Shown here piece after piece: positions 8,403-16,980 of a stretch of 64,000 nt of DNA. The notes beneath the pieces are model-generated. The model did not search any database. It was not told the DNA's origin and saw only the letters and a program-made list of their open reading frames with translations. Made by a program: the position numbers and the translations under genes. Numbering within the stretch: the first letter of the stretch is position 1; every line of letters starts with the position of its first letter. Source of the stretch: Punctularia strigosozonata HHB-11173 SS5 (lineage: Eukaryota > Basidiomycota > Agaricomycetes > Corticiales > Punctulariaceae); contig NW_006767436.1 of the NCBI RefSeq assembly GCF_000264995.1, positions 347,414 through 411,413 on the forward strand. Direction: 5' to 3'.

Positions 8403-11400
8403 ATGTCGACATGGAATGCGTCTGGGGGCGCGCCGCCGTACCCACCGCCGCCGCGCCGCTCGCGCTCGCGCTCACCTAGCTCGTACCGCGGCGGTGCGGG
8501 TTACCCCCCGCCCTACGGCGACTACCGCGCCGACTGGGACGCGTACGAGCGTGACCGGGCGTGGGCGAGCTACGAGCGTGAACGTGCCGCGTACGACTAT
8601 GGGCGACGCGGCCGGAGCCGGAGCCCGTCGATGGACGAAGGTGTGTACACATTTGACTCCTCGCATCGCGTTGGGCTGACGCGGTGCTTCTTCCGCACAG
8701 CTGGGAGGAAACGAAGGCGTTCGCAGTCTCCGTACGATACTCGGTACGACCCGCGGCCGCGCTACGACGAATATGGTGCGCTTTTTTTCTGGTCGTCGGT
8801 GAATAACTGCAGGCGATCTGATGCGTTACCTTTCGTAGATCGATCCGGTCGCTACTCGCCTCACCGCGGTGGGCCATATCCCCCATACGGCTCGTCACGT
8901 CATGCTCCGCCCGACCCACACACGTTCGACTACCCGTCGTCGCTGAAGCAGTACGCGGAGTGGTTCCGGTACCATTATCCCACGCAGGCGACGGAAGAGG
9001 ACAACCTGGACAAAGCGGCAGAGCAGGAGGCCGGCGACGGCAGCAAGCCACGCAACGGGATCCGCGCCCGGTGGGAGAAGTACAAAAAGGAGTTTGCTGC
9101 CACGCAGGTGCGTCGACTCGTGTCGCACTTATATGCGGTGGATAGAAGTCTGACTGGGGTATCAGTTGCAACGCATGTTTGACCACCACCGAAAGTCGCC
9201 TTGGTTTGCGGAGAAGTACGACCCGGCGCCGGAGTACGCGAATATGCGCATGCGCGTGCGCAAGGTTGGGTGGAAGGGCCGCATGACGGCTTTTCTCGCT
9301 GACCTCGACGCGGGCAAGTTCGACCCCGCCTTTACCGAGCCCGAGCCCGAGCCGGCTACGTCGCCCGTAAAAGAGACTCCGACGCCGGCGCCCGCTCCCG
9401 CCGAAAGCACGGCGAACGGGAACGGGAGCGCCGCGGTGAAAACTGAGGACGAGGCGGCTGCCCCGGGCGGCGAGGAGGTCAAGAACGAGCAGGAGGACGT
9501 GCAGCTCGAGGACGCCGCGGGGGAGGACGATCCGAGCAAGGCGGAGGCGAATGGCAAAGGGCCGGTCGATAAGCGCATCCTAAACCGCGGCGAGGAGGTG
9601 ACGGCTGTGACGGAGGGGAACCAGGTCATGATCCGGACCATTCCGCCCGACATCGGACGAGCGAAGCTCGAAGATGTGAGTGTCGCCGTGCCTTGTGAAC
9701 GGCGTGTAACTCATGTCACATGGCATCATAGGCGATTGCCAGCATGCCGGGCTTTGTGTACCTGGCGCTCGGCGACCCGTTGCAGAAGAGAAACTACTAT
9801 CGCGCTGGGTGGCTCAAGTTCCGCGAGGATGCGGATATGCCCTCGATCATGTCCGAGCTGAGCGAGAAAAAGGTGCGCGATGCGCCATATATTCACGCAG
9901 GACGCCCTAGCGCTAACAAAAACATATATTCGTTCCCTCTCCAGATCGAGGGCTTCAAGCTACACGTGACGCACAACACCAAGCCGTTCGTGAACCGGGT
10001 GAGGTACGCGCCCGAGGTCGCGAGCCGGCCCGATCGTTTGCAGAAGGACCTTGCGAACGTGAAGGCGCTCGCGGCCGTGCTGGAGGACGAGTACACGAAG
10101 TTGCGCACGTTCAAACCTGAGAAACCCAAGAAGCCGACGGAGGGTACCGAAGGCGAAGGCGAGAACGCGGGTGGCGAGGGAGAGGGTGTGAAGAAGGAGG
10201 AGCAGAAGGAGGAGACGATGGACGTGGATGAGGAGGAAGACCCGGAGCCGAGGGAGCGGGGGAGCGAGGCGGTGGAGAGGAAGGTGGGGCAGTTGATGGA
10301 CGGTTTCGTGCAGGCGGGGTTGATCGATCCGGCGGACGAGAAGGCGTTCCAGGCTAAGAAAGTGAGCGGTTTTTTTTTGTTTTCGATTCATATATCGTTG
10401 CGCGCGGATTCTGATGTGCGCGTTTGCGATAGACTGTAGTAACGCTGGATCTGTACCTCGCGTATCTCCGTGCCGCGTTCCATACATGCTACTATTGCGC
10501 GGTCGTGACGGACCACGTTGAGGAGCTGCAGCGGAAGTGCATCAAGCATGAGAGGAAGCCGTTGAGCAAGAGCTTGAGGGAGGAGTATGAGCGCGAGGTA
10601 GCGAATCGCGAGAAGGCGGAGGCGGAGGCGAGGGAGAAGGTGGAAGAGAAGGAGGGTGAGGGTGAAGGTGGTGGAGCGGAAGGCGTAGAAGGCGGTGAAG
10701 GGGGTGATGGCGAGAAGAAGGAGAAGGAGGAGGGAAAGGAGAGGAAGAGGAGGGAAAGGGGGGAGAATCGGGATTGGAAGCGGAACGGTCGGTTGGCTGA
10801 ACCCTGATGGGAGTGCAGATACTGACCATTGTCGGATGCTGGTAGATGAGAGGTGGCTGGAATGGCTTGACAGCAAGGCTGCTCTATTAATCAACAGAGA
10901 CGGCGTGGACCCGAGGGACTACGGCGGGAAAAGCTACGATGAGTACGTATCTCGTCACCCTCTTGGCATTATTACGTGAACGAGCATCCATGTTATTATC
11001 TAGGGAGCTGTCAAAGGCCGTCGAGCCTTACATCAAGCAGGAGGACGAGAGCAAGTTCCGCTGCAAAACGTGCCAGAAGCTGTTCAAGGCGACTTCGTTC
11101 GTGGAAAAACACATCTCGAACAAGCACCCGGAGTTGATCAAGCATCTCGACGAGGTAAAGCGACCACCATCTTGGTGCTTATCACCGCGACCCCCCCAAA
11201 TCGCTGATGATCCTTCTCTCATTAGATTCCTTATTTCAACAACTTTGCGCTCGATCCGCACCACATCCAGCCGTTCACGCACCCGCCCGCGCCGGTCGGA
11301 AACAGCGCGCCACCCCCTCCGCAGGCGTACGGCCTGGCTGGGCCCGCCTACCCCGCGGGTGATTACGGCCGAGGCGGGTTCTACGGCGGCGCGCCGTATG

Positions 11401-11774
11401 CGCAAGGCTATCCGCCCCCGGCGTATGCCAACGGCGGCGGGGGCTATTGGGACCCGTACGCTGCGCAGGCCGCTGCTGCCGCTTACCCGCCGTACGCGGG
11501 GCGGCGGTTGGGCGACCGGATCGGCGGGTACGCGCCGCCGGGGTATGATGCGCCCGGAGACGGGCTTCCCCCCGCTGCGCCGGGATTGCCGCCGAAGCCG
11601 TCGCAGGCGATCCTCGAGCCGGGGCCGGGGGGAGGGGGCAGGAGAAGGAACACGGGCCCGCCGCCGCCCCCGCCGCCCGACGCGAAGGAGGATCCGAGGG
11701 CGGCGGCGGGTCGGAAGGTCAGCTACCACGATATGGACCTCGTCGCGGAGGGCGATGTGGAGCTGCAATATTGA
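8403..11774 (+). CDS. ARS2: ARS2/SERRATE, nuclear RNA effector protein
   Basis: Ten exons: 8403-8640, 8701-8775, 8839-9107, 9166-9675, 9732-9872, 9945-10361, 10433-10787, 10846-10942, 11004-11154, 11226-11774; about 933 residues. In animals, plants and fission yeast this family bridges the nuclear cap-binding complex to RNA processing or decay. The N-terminus is RS/RG-rich (RRSRSRSPSS). The SERRATE/Ars2 N-terminal domain spans about residues 128-240 (HTFDYPSSLKQYAEWFRYHY, then MFDHHRKSPWFAEKYDP). An RRM-like core with long acidic inserts follows (GFVYLALGDP, TLDLYLAYLRAAFH). The C-terminal C2H2 finger is near residues 719-743 (FRCKTCQKLFKATSFVEKH), followed by IPYFNNFALD and a Gly/Pro/Tyr-rich tail. 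The intron 9873-9944 is 72 nt with no in-frame stop; removing it restores EKK-IEGFKLH, as in the family. Other introns change phase and are well supported. Confidence 0.93.
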
Positions 11775-12153
11775 GCGCGGTTTCGGTGCTTGCTGCCTTC
11801 GGTGCCGTGGTTTGGGCGTTTTTTTCTTTTGTATGTACATACGATTTCCTGAACGCGCTTTGCGGTTGCGTGAACACGGCGTGTGTGGCGCGAGTCCGCG
11901 TGGAACGTGGACGGCGTTGTGGGATTCTATTCAAGGCAAGGCACCGGCGGGCGGGGGACGGGAATAGCGCGCGCCCCGGTCATGGCTTACGTAATAAAGC
12001 AGCAGAGCTGTGGAGTGCGCGGCAACGACCTCAAGCGGCAGTACCTTCCTCCTTTTTCTCCGTACAGAAACCAGACGCGGTCGCCTCTGCACCACCACCG
12101 CCCGCTCGACGCAGGCAACGGCCTCGACGACGACGACGACGACGCCCACTTCC
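11775..12153. other. Intergenic between ARS2 and SSK1
   Basis: About 380 bases holding the ARS2 3' end and the SSK1 5' region. The frame is open without an ATG ahead of the chosen SSK1 start. No other gene seen. Confidence 0.4.
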
Positions 12154-15100
12154 ATGTCTGCGCCCAAGCTGCCCGTCGTCCGCCTTCCCGTCGTCTACAG
12201 CAGCGGCACCCAGACCGATCCCGACGCCGCGGGTTCGGACGGCGTTATGGTCGAGCTACCGTCCTCGTCCAAGTTTGCTTTCGCCTGGCCGAAGGACGGC
12301 ACGGCTCCCCCTGGAGGCGCGGCGGCGCCGTCGACGATCATGGAGCGCGTGCCTGCGCTGGGCGATTCGGCGTCCACGTCGGACGCGGATACGGACGCAT
12401 CGGACGCGCACAGCGATCACGAGGCGGGCGGGAGGGTCCCGGATAGGATTGACGGACGTGCAGGGGTGGCGCAGGGGACGGACGCGGGCCAGCAGGATCT
12501 AGAGGAACAGGACACGGAGGGCAGCGAATACACGCCCACCAACCGGCTGCACCTCGACGAGAACCCGCTCGAGGTGCCCCAACCCGCAGAAGGCCCGCCG
12601 CCGCCCCTGCCTCGCCTCACTCGCGCCTTCTCGATGCCCGTCCCGTCCCAGCTCGGGCACCTCAAGAACCCGCGTCGGGGGTTCTCGAGCATCAGCAGCA
12701 ACTCGCCACCCCAGACCGCGCTCGAGAGCCCGATCGCGCAAGACGACTCGCCTTTGTGGACCCATGAGCTCTCGCTCGAGCTCGCCGACTGGGCGCAGAT
12801 GGTCATCCAGACCCTCCTCCAGCTCTCGCCGCCGCAGGTGCTCGATCCGGCCAAGGAGCAGTTCTCCGCGTGCTCGCTCTCGATCCCGACCCCGTCCATC
12901 TCGGCCATGTTCACGAGCATGAAGAACCTAAACTATATGTCCGCCAATATGTCCACGTTCGCCTCCGGCCTGCCCAGTCCGCCGCTCACGTCCGGCTCGG
13001 ACCGCCTCCCGTTCTCGAACGGTGTCATCTCCGACTTTGACATCGGCGAGACGCTCCAGAGCCTGGGCGACTCCATGAGCGGGTTCGCCGCGGACGCCGG
13101 CGTGGATCTCGTTATATATCACGGCGACGTGGGCCTCAAGCACGTCTCGGTCAGGGGCGACGAGTGTGGGATATCGTACACCATAACGCATGTGAGCGCT
13201 TCCCGCGGAAACAACGTTGTGTTCCGGCCCCTTGTGCTGAACACAGCCCTAGATACTGCGGCAAGTCATCTCCACGGCCAAACGTGGCGACTCCATCGAA
13301 ATAGGCCTCTTTATCGCCGACACCACGCCCCTCACGCCCGAACCGGATGACGGCGCTCATCCGCACCAATTCGGCAAGCTGCGCTGTGCGATCGACATCG
13401 CGCACAAGTTCTTGCCCGATCCAGCGCCGACCACGGGCACGCTCGACTCGCCGCCGCCCTCGCCCACCGCGACGCGCCCCGAACCGAACTACAGCTCGTC
13501 CGTCCTCCGCCGTCTGCTCCGCCTCCAGGACGCGAGGTTCCTCCCCGCGGTCCCGCCCAAGACGTTCTCGCTCGGCCGCGGTTGCGAGGTCGTGTTCACC
13601 CTCCCGCGCGGCGACCCGGCGGCGGTCAACCCGTCCGTCGGGCTCACGCCCGAGGAGGCGCCGTACGGGCACGTGCGCATCGCGAGCGAGCCGACGCTCG
13701 ACGAGCTCCAGGCGTTTGCGGAGACGCTGAAGGGCCGGAAGGTCACGCTGTACGCGAGCTCGAAGGGCTCGTTCGCGCACCATCTGTCGAGCTACCTCAC
13801 CGCGTGGGGGTTGGACGTCAGCCACGTCGCGCCCGAGACGGGCGTCGGAGAGGGAGAGCAGGAGCCTACGGATGCGGGGTTGGAGAGTATACCGGAGATG
13901 GCGACGACGGAGGCGGTGAGCGGGAGGAGCATGTTCGGGCCGGGGTCGGTGGGATCGCGGATGACGCCCCCGCTGAGCGCGTCGTCCGTGGACGGGTTTC
14001 CTTCGACGTTGCCCGATTCGGCGTCGGCGCCTGCCATGCCGAATGCGTCGGTCCCCGCTGCGCAGCATGCGCCGCTGGTGTTCATCGACGACGACGTCCT
14101 GGTGCTTCGCGAACGGCTCAGGAAGGCGCGCGCGGAACAGCCGTACCCTCTACATATCGGTCGCAAGCGGCCCTCGCTCGCGGCGAACCACCGCCCGCGC
14201 TCGTCGCCGCACGTCGCGCGCTCGCTCGGGCTGCCCGTGCAACAGGGCTCCGCCGCTCCCGGCTCCTCGAACGCGTCCGCCGGCTTCGCGCCGTTCAACG
14301 CTCAGACGCAGCCGAGCGTGATCATACACTTTACGAGCCTGACCAACTACAAGCTCGTCAAGGACGCGGTGCAGTCCATCTTCTTCCAGCCTGCGCAGGC
14401 GCGCGTGCCGGAGGTGATCGTGATACCGAAGCCGGCGGGGCCGCGGCGGTTCCTCACGGCGCTGCACACGGCGGTGACGAAGCCGGTCGTCGACCCGTTC
14501 TTCGCGCCGATCGCGACGAGCCCGATGTCGCCCGGCCTCGCGTCGCCGTTCTTCGGATTCCCGCCCGCGCTGCACCACGCGACGGCCAACAACGCCGGCG
14601 GTAACGCCCACGTTGGCGGCGTCGGATCGAGCGGACAGAATAGTAGCAGCGGCGGAAGTGGAAGTGGAAGCGGAAGCGGAAGTGGAAGCGGGGGAGGGTC
14701 GAGCAGCGGGAATAATAGCGGGGGGAACGGTCATGGCGGACGGACGCCTGGGTCGCCGCCGTCGAGGCCGCTGAGTGGGCTCAGGGGAGGGTCGGAGAAG
14801 ACGCGCAGCCCGGGCGAGGTGGTTATGGGCGGTGCGCACGGGCACCATCCGCTCCCGCCGAGCCCGCTCGCGACGAGCGAGGGGATGGAGTATTTTGCGG
14901 AGGCGGCGGAGAAGCTGGGGACGAGCCCGAGCTCGGGGTTGGTGATACAGAGCCCGGACGGGCAGCCGGCGGCGATCTTCTTTCATCCGAGGCCGAAGGG
15001 GTCTGGGTCGGGGCGCGCGCAGACGTTGGGTCCCGGTGTTGGGCTGGGGTTGGTGGAGAAGGGGACGGGTACGGTGGTGGGGAGTCCGAGGGTGGGGAGT

Positions 15101-16980
15101 AGGAGACAGAGCGGGGAACGTGGGGTAGAGAGGGAGGAGAAGGGGAAGGGGAAAGAGAGGGAGAGGGAGGAGAAGGAGAAGGAGAAGGAGAGCGTGCAGC
15201 AGCAGCAGCAGCAACAACAACAACAAGCGGGTCCATCGACGCCGGCGAACGTGAAGAAGAGCCCGGTGCTCGCGGCGACGGCGTTGGCAGAGGCGCGTCG
15301 TCCCGCGACGATGGTGACTGCACCGACGCCGTCGCCGTCCCCGTTACATGTCGAGACTCCGCCGAGCTTGCAGGCGATCGTGTCGGCGGGGATGCAGGTG
15401 ATCTCGCCCGACGCGGTGAGCACGCCGGGGCTGCCGAGGCCGGTGAGGCGACAGAGCGGGGTCATGCTGGAGAGGGAGAGGAGGGAGGGCACGCCGCCGG
15501 TCAGTCCGAGGAGCGATGGGGCGGACAGCGCCGGAGGGCACACGCCGAGGATCGTGAGGAGGAGGAGGAGTCAGGCGCCCAGGGGGAGTCCGGTGGTGAA
15601 GCCTGCGGCGACTGCTTCTGGCACGGGCGGGGAGAACAAGGTCGTGCCGCCGATCAGCGTGTTAATCGTCGATGGTGAGCATATTTGCGTTCGTATGGGC
15701 AAGGCGAGGAAGGGCGCTGACGACCGTACCTTGTTCTTAGACAACCCGATCAATCAGACGATCTTGTCGACGTTCATGAAGCGGAAGAAGATCAAGTATG
15801 ACGTGGCGAAGGATGGGGCGGAAGCGGTTTCGAAGTGGCGGACGGGAGGGTTCCATCTGATCCTGGTGAGTGCTCATGTCCAGAAACCTGTCGTGCGATA
15901 CTGTGTACTGATTACATGCGTGTTCGTGCGCAGATGGACATTCAGATGCCGGTCATGGACGGTATACAGGCGACGAAGGAGATCCGGCGGATCGAGAAGA
16001 TGTACGGCGCCGTCGGGCCAGGGACGCCCTCGTCCGACCTGGGCACGCCGTCGGAAGCGGCCTCGTCGCTCTCTGCCGACTCGCGGATCACGAGCCTCAA
16101 CCTCAGCTTTGGGGCGCCCCCTCCTCCGTCGCCGTACCGGTCTTCGGTGATCATCGTGGCGCTGACGGCGAGCTCGCTGCAGAGCGACCGAGTAGCGGCG
16201 CTGGCGGCGGGGTGCAACGACTTTCTGACGAAGCCGGTGTCGCTCGTGTGGTTGAACAACAAGATCATCGAATGGGGGTCGATCAAGGCGTTGCAGATGT
16301 GGGCGGATCTGAGGCCGGAGGGGGCGAGCGTGCGGGCGGTGAATTCGGGGCAGGTGGCGCAGGCGATGGCGAGGGGCGTGGCGAGCCGGTTGCATGTGCC
16401 GGAGGGGAGGGCGACGCCGGGGGTGAGGAGTCGCGAGGGGAGTTTGTCGAGGGTGGGGGAGGAGTTGGTGCGCCGGGAGCAGAAGGAGAAGGAGAAGACG
16501 AGGGCGGGTGTTCGGGCTGGAGAGGCGAGGAAGGAGAAGGAGAGGTCGCCTGGAGCGGAGACGAGCGCGAGCGACAGCGACCTCGCGGCCAAGTCGGTGC
16601 TCACCCCGCCGTCGGACCTCGCCTCCGCTTCCGCGTCCTTGTCGAGCGCCAGCGCCAGCGCGTCGTCGCTCCCTAACGCGGCGTCGGCCACGTCTTCGGA
16701 GACTGCCGTGGACCTCGAGACGATTCCTCCGACGATCACGGCAGCTGGCGCGGCGTCCGAAACCTTAGATCCCGATCCGGCCTCAAGGGCGTCGACGCCC
16801 GCGTCGTCTTCGGCCGCGCCGTCGTCCTATCACACGCCCGCCGACGGGGGCTCTTCGCCCCGGGATAGAGACTCCGACGACGAGGCGCCGCTGCCCGGCG
16901 CGTTCCCGACGCCGAAAGCGGTCGACTTCGCGCGGGAGGAGGAGGGGGAGTCACACGTGCCACCGCTCGCGTCCGAATGA
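12154..16980 (+). CDS. SSK1: SSK1-type response regulator of the HOG stress pathway
   Basis: Four exons: 12154-13191, 13253-15674, 15741-15865, 15934-16980; about 1543 residues. SSK1 receives phosphate from the histidine phosphotransfer protein and controls the MAPKKK of the HOG pathway in the cytoplasm. The receiver domain (about residues 1147-1314) has the acidic pair in VLIVDDNPINQ, the phospho-acceptor Asp in LMDIQMPVMDG, Thr in VALTAS and Lys in LTKPV, so it looks active. It carries a loop of roughly 50 residues after KEIRRIEKMYG, as in fungal SSK1. Upstream regions resemble a degenerate histidine-kinase core (about 204-366) and a dead receiver (about 507-752). Gly/Ser repeats, a basic-acidic block and a poly-Gln run near nt 15200 separate the two receivers. 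The first in-frame ATG is used as start. Confidence 0.92.

Follow-up and report, generated by a model that had tools for sequence, protein, structure and literature searches.

The SSK1 locus and its intact receiver

SSK1 of the basidiomycete Punctularia strigosozonata HHB-11173 SS5 lies on the forward strand of the 64,000-nucleotide stretch analyzed here (the window), which is part of contig C4 in an assembly of 33.6 Mb and 32 contigs. The gene has four exons (12154-13191, 13253-15674, 15741-15865, and 15934-16980) and three introns (13192-13252, 15675-15740, and 15866-15933), all of them GT-AG, and splicing gives a single open frame encoding 1543 residues. An earlier note, made from the sequence alone, had proposed that the protein is a collapsed hybrid histidine kinase, in which three degenerate blocks (a DHp helix pair, an ATP-binding domain, and a receiver) precede one live receiver. 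All of the peptides quoted in that note are present, in the order given. We find a block similar to the kinase ATPase (CA) domain, followed by a block similar to the first receiver (REC1) rather than the second receiver (REC2) of hybrid kinases. Both similarities are above chance, catalytic residues are absent, and the live receiver follows.

The C-terminal receiver is intact, with the DD, D, T, and K residues all in place, and is the sole Pfam match above cut-offs in SSK1. Its best solved relative in a PDB sequence search is yeast SSK1 (5kbx, E=8.3e-40, 139.6 bits), with the next chain at 69.6 bits. It also carries a 46-residue insert after alpha3 (the gap at 1218-1263 in the receiver match) and an aromatic residue, F1292, three residues ahead of K1295. 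A long alpha3-beta4 insert and a Phe or Tyr at K-3 are given as features of Ssk1 in the available passages of PMC8510515. Judged by its receiver sequence, which is closest to Ssk1, the gene is an Ssk1-type response regulator. Such regulators are treated as one-receiver switches.

A CA-like and a REC1-like block ahead of the live receiver

Profiles were built from 80 bacterial hybrid-kinase loci, of which 77 had a usable open reading frame (ORF) and three were dropped. The 77 ORFs supplied 76 DHp, 77 CA, and 69 REC1 sequences; the CA profile also includes two kinase sequences from the P. strigosozonata genome, and the REC2 profile was drawn from 40 ORFs with a second receiver found by motif. 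We used two aligners: hhalign, queried with the single SSK1 sequence at greedy and default settings, and a cruder profile aligner written for this analysis. Controls were shuffled sequences and windows from 341 decoy ORFs, from which 119 had been removed for matching a profile with an E-value of 1 or less; at most 200 of the remaining windows were used with hhalign. A scan of residues 1-1139 at steps of 40 residues placed the CA maximum at 281 and the REC1 maximum at 481.

With hhalign, the CA block matched its profile at P=0.0022 (probability 13%), a score reached by one of 200 shuffles and by none of 200 windows from unrelated ORFs. The cruder aligner gave 17.0, which was equaled by 10/2000 shuffles and 17/439 windows. 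When the whole body (residues 190-775) was the hhalign query, P was 0.0056 for CA and 0.01 for REC1. The greedy setting places residues 291-474 on profile positions 2-167 of 168, while the default places only 293-359 on positions 4-68, with the same score. The C-terminal SSVLRRLLRLQDARF...LGRGCEVVFTLP of the block, which was absent from the earlier list of peptides, maps to the end of the CA profile in both aligners. In the hhalign register, the Gly-Asp ahead of the N-box is kept as G335-D336, and the N-box Asn position is occupied by Q350. DTGIGI and GTGLGL have no counterpart in the block (D-box register I395-L400, by eye), and Pfam finds no HATPase_c in the body. Since the N-, D-, and G-boxes are lost, the block would not be expected to bind ATP as kinases do. 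The N-box block proposed at residues ~316-366 survives as an above-chance resemblance in the hhalign controls: residues 291-474 resemble the CA domain of kinases, firmly only over 293-359.

The DHp helix pair proposed at residues ~204-265 does not survive. Its profile scores 6.5 in the cruder aligner, a value reached by 849/2000 shuffles and 313/1356 real windows, which is chance level, and no H-box stands out. Neither Pfam, which reports no HisKA, nor the DHp profile revealed a domain with a phospho-accepting His in the SSK1 body. Two H-box-like strings spotted by eye, THELSLEL (203-210) and SLSIPTP (241-247), were rejected: when SSK1 is scanned without gaps against the H-box columns, the top-scoring position lies elsewhere.

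The evidence for a receiver-like block, placed by the earlier note at ~507-752, is better. The REC1 match by hhalign (P=0.0049, probability 7%) is firm only over 502-539, and its score was reached by none of 200 shuffles and none of 173 real windows. Over 502-757 the cruder aligner scored 22.8 (16/2000 shuffles and 13/214 windows as high), and the first strand-helix-strand by itself scored 15.0 (1/2000 and 6/2087). Residues 490-770 score 22.8 on REC1 (8/1000 shuffles) and 5.9 on REC2 (662/1000 shuffles); the corresponding values for the live receiver are 112.9 and 134.0. The first is therefore REC1-like and the second REC2-like, so the two stand in the order found in tandem-receiver hybrid kinases. 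Such a preference for REC1 is not absolute, being seen in 57 of the 69 bacterial first receivers, which are themselves part of the REC1 profile. The block also has a Trp-Gly pair (W531-G532), which occurs within the first 50 residues of 19/69 first versus 1/40 second receivers.

In a single-sequence AlphaFold model of the block, strands and helices follow in receiver order, and most of the top structural alignments by VIA-align are receivers, with ShkA (6qrj) among them; the pLDDT of 44.7 is low. The conserved Lys-Pro is kept. The view that the block has no normal phospho-acceptor context needs amending: the acidic pair is lost, and by eye D625, T707, and K739 nonetheless occupy receiver positions. 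With the acidic pair lost, the block would not be expected to be phosphorylated normally. From its sequence and model, residues 502-757 look like a pseudo-receiver.

One hybrid kinase of the same genome, C22 (L067:3545-5432, G000:C22), has clear HisKA and HATPase_c domains in Pfam and, between its CA domain and true receiver, a receiver-like block that Pfam misses and that scores 30.2 on REC1. Compared with this inter-domain block, the scores of SSK1 residues 498-545, 698-765, and the whole block were reached by 5, 4, and 39 of 500 shuffles; against the entire C22 stretch, the same three figures were 22, 51, and 213 of 500. By summed piece scores, C22 ranks 3rd of 112 receivers, and two other inter-domain segments of the P. 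strigosozonata genome, picked by eye, rank 104th and 111th.

Table 1. Features of the SSK1 coding region, in window coordinates
Feature	Position	Strand	Basis or remark
SSK1 coding region including stop, 1543 amino acids	12154..16980	+	spliced translation
Residues 199-265, DHp block of the earlier note, unsupported as DHp	12748..12948	+	at chance
CA-like block, exon 1 part, residues 291-346	13024..13191	+	firm match lies in 293-359
CA-like block, exon 2 part, residues 347-474	13253..13636	+	weaker; N-, D-, and G-box residues lost
Putative pseudo-receiver block, residues 493-765	13691..14509	+	low-complexity inserts 541-617, 644-699
A514/S515 instead of the receiver acidic pair	13754..13759	+	sequence, register by eye
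D625, phospho-acceptor position	14087..14089	+	sequence, register by eye
T707, conserved Thr position	14333..14335	+	sequence, register by eye
K739-P740, conserved Lys-Pro	14429..14434	+	sequence
Low-complexity linker, residues 766-1139	14510..15631	+	61% P, S, G, A, T, Q
Live receiver, residues 1145-1312, introns 2 and 3 within	15647..16284	+	D1153/D1154, D1197, T1273, K1295

Ser-Gly runs, a polyglutamine run, and a charged stretch rich in K and E lie in the linker between the two receiver-type blocks. The ORF at 10939-11967, which precedes SSK1 in the same orientation, matches the ARS2 family close to its beginning (PF04959, E 2e-8). Elsewhere in the genome, a kinase ORF (L008, G000:C11:101833-102168) has HisKA and HATPase_c and, by eye, looks to have lost its GTGLGL box, which suggests that partly decayed kinases may exist in other places; matches of similar size occur on C15. 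There are also two HPt-family matches above the Pfam cut-off on different contigs (L065, G000:C10:58211-58354, E 3.6e-6; L066, G000:C2:765934-766065, E 8.4e-6). As a rule, fungi are said to have a single HPt of the Ypd1 type.

Origin of the SSK1 body

The order of a dead CA-like block, a dead receiver-like block, and a live receiver has above-chance support and matches that of a tandem-receiver hybrid kinase, in partial agreement with the earlier note. On these comparisons, we lean towards the explanation that SSK1 descends from such a kinase, whose kinase core and REC1 died. The strength of this reading is moderate, because the end-to-end CA alignment is obtained only at the greedy setting, and the two aligners, which concur at both ends of the CA register, disagree on its middle. 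Several further observations weigh against it. The hhalign probabilities are low and the default cores short for both blocks, and in the cruder aligner appreciable numbers of unrelated windows score equally. Past ~540, the greedy REC1 alignment differs from the register adopted here. The DHp score is at chance, and the CA block is unlike the DHp-CA region of C22 (319/500 shuffles as high). Structure prediction, which gave receiver-order strands for the third block at low confidence, was uninformative for the CA half (pLDDT 38.1). Pfam finds no HisKA, HATPase_c, or Response_reg in either the full or the condensed N-terminal sequence; PDB sequence searches returned no match for the CA block or for the body as a whole, and Foldseek no significant one. 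The silence of Pfam is not decisive, because it is also blank over the receiver-like block of C22. Finally, the SSK1 body is represented by one sequence only: searches with an exon-2 piece gave one candidate stretch in viral contigs, unconfirmed, and 94 stretches in genome contigs, none of which was confirmed, and the pseudo-receiver as query in the P. strigosozonata genome matched only itself.

If only the receiver-like block is homologous, a receiver was gained or duplicated and turned into a pseudo-receiver, and the likeness to CA arose by chance in an alpha/beta region. The receiver block is indeed the better supported of the two, with CA the weaker in pairwise comparison, register, and half-model. 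However, in hhalign only one of 200 shuffles and none of 200 real-ORF windows match the score of the CA block, which sits immediately ahead of the receiver-like one in the arrangement known from hybrid kinases, and the receiver-like block is of REC1 type and no copy of the live, REC2-like receiver. We consider this alternative unlikely, albeit one to be taken seriously. We give distinctly less weight to the idea that residues 493-765 form some other Rossmann-like alpha/beta domain, of reductase-like or flavodoxin-like type. The condensed block had four weak, unrelated-looking matches among PDB sequences, including short-chain reductase-type ones (2pk3, E 0.014, the best; 8r2j, E 0.022), and a nitrogenase-type family appeared in Pfam at E 0.066-0.09. 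The first Foldseek row of the block model is an aminotransferase, and only 10 of the 50 rows listed are recognizable as receivers. These hits are countered by the preference for the REC1 profile, the Asp, Thr, and Lys at receiver spacing, the location between the CA-like block and the live receiver, and the VIA-align rows. Least probable of all, in our view, is that the region is largely disordered and its resemblances are accidental. Low pLDDT in both models, low-complexity flanks and inserts, and the lack of a family match would fit disorder, but the core segments contain 31-41% large hydrophobics compared with 16-20% in inserts and flanks, and the scores exceed those of composition-matched shuffles.

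If a tandem-receiver hybrid kinase was the ancestor, it would have had the architecture DHp-CA-REC1-REC2. Its CA domain would survive, and presumably still fold, in outline without ATP-binding residues, and REC1 would survive as a pseudo-receiver without the metal-binding acidic pair. REC2 would be the working receiver, taking phosphate from Ypd1 and controlling an Ssk2-type mitogen-activated protein kinase kinase kinase (MAPKKK), as in yeast. The CA/REC1 body would then most likely serve as a platform on which the MAPKKK module docks or assembles, independently of phosphorylation. The earlier note had suggested phosphotransfer-protein binding or dimerization; docking or scaffolding seems likelier, because in yeast it is the live receiver that Ypd1 binds, according to the portion of PMC8510515 available. 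Alternatively, the dead body may restrain the live receiver, much as the ShkA pseudo-receiver inhibits its kinase core. That the whole Ssk1/Mcs4 family arose in this way, with the body as a platform holding the MAPKKK module and reduced or lost in some yeasts, is conceivable but doubtful.

Relation to known regulators and hybrid kinases

If this origin is correct, a dead kinase body would explain where such a regulator came from and would be a physical candidate for functions independent of SSK1 phosphorylation. In fission yeast, as reported in the accessible part of PMC3644883, cells lacking the homolog Mcs4 respond poorly to several stresses, whereas loss of its phospho-site affects peroxide signaling; the same text leaves open whether Mcs4 is a scaffold. 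The portions of the open-licence literature at hand describe no kinase-like or second receiver domain for Ssk1, SskA, or Mcs4, which is weak evidence.

With these response regulators of the high-osmolarity glycerol and stress-activated protein kinase (HOG/SAPK) pathways, as far as the available sources describe them, P. strigosozonata SSK1 shares the live C-terminal receiver, the alpha3-beta4 insert, and the aromatic residue at K-3. It differs in that they are described with one receiver, while here the live receiver follows two further blocks, one CA-like and one receiver-like. With tandem-receiver hybrid kinases (the bacterial set and ShkA), SSK1 shares the order of CA, REC1-type, and REC2-type blocks, but it has no detectable DHp or ATP-binding boxes and is not a kinase. 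In ShkA, the REC1 place is taken by a pseudo-receiver that binds and inhibits the kinase core of the same protein (PMC12632262, in the text available). Fungal pseudo-receivers are rare and mostly found in Rim15, according to the parts of PMC8510515 and PMC12632262 at hand. The tcsA gene of T. marneffei, as outlined in the available text of PMC4863612, is a fungal hybrid kinase gene reduced to one for a receiver protein; in tcsA the kinase domains are missing, whereas in SSK1 their outline seems to have been kept, though not their activity.
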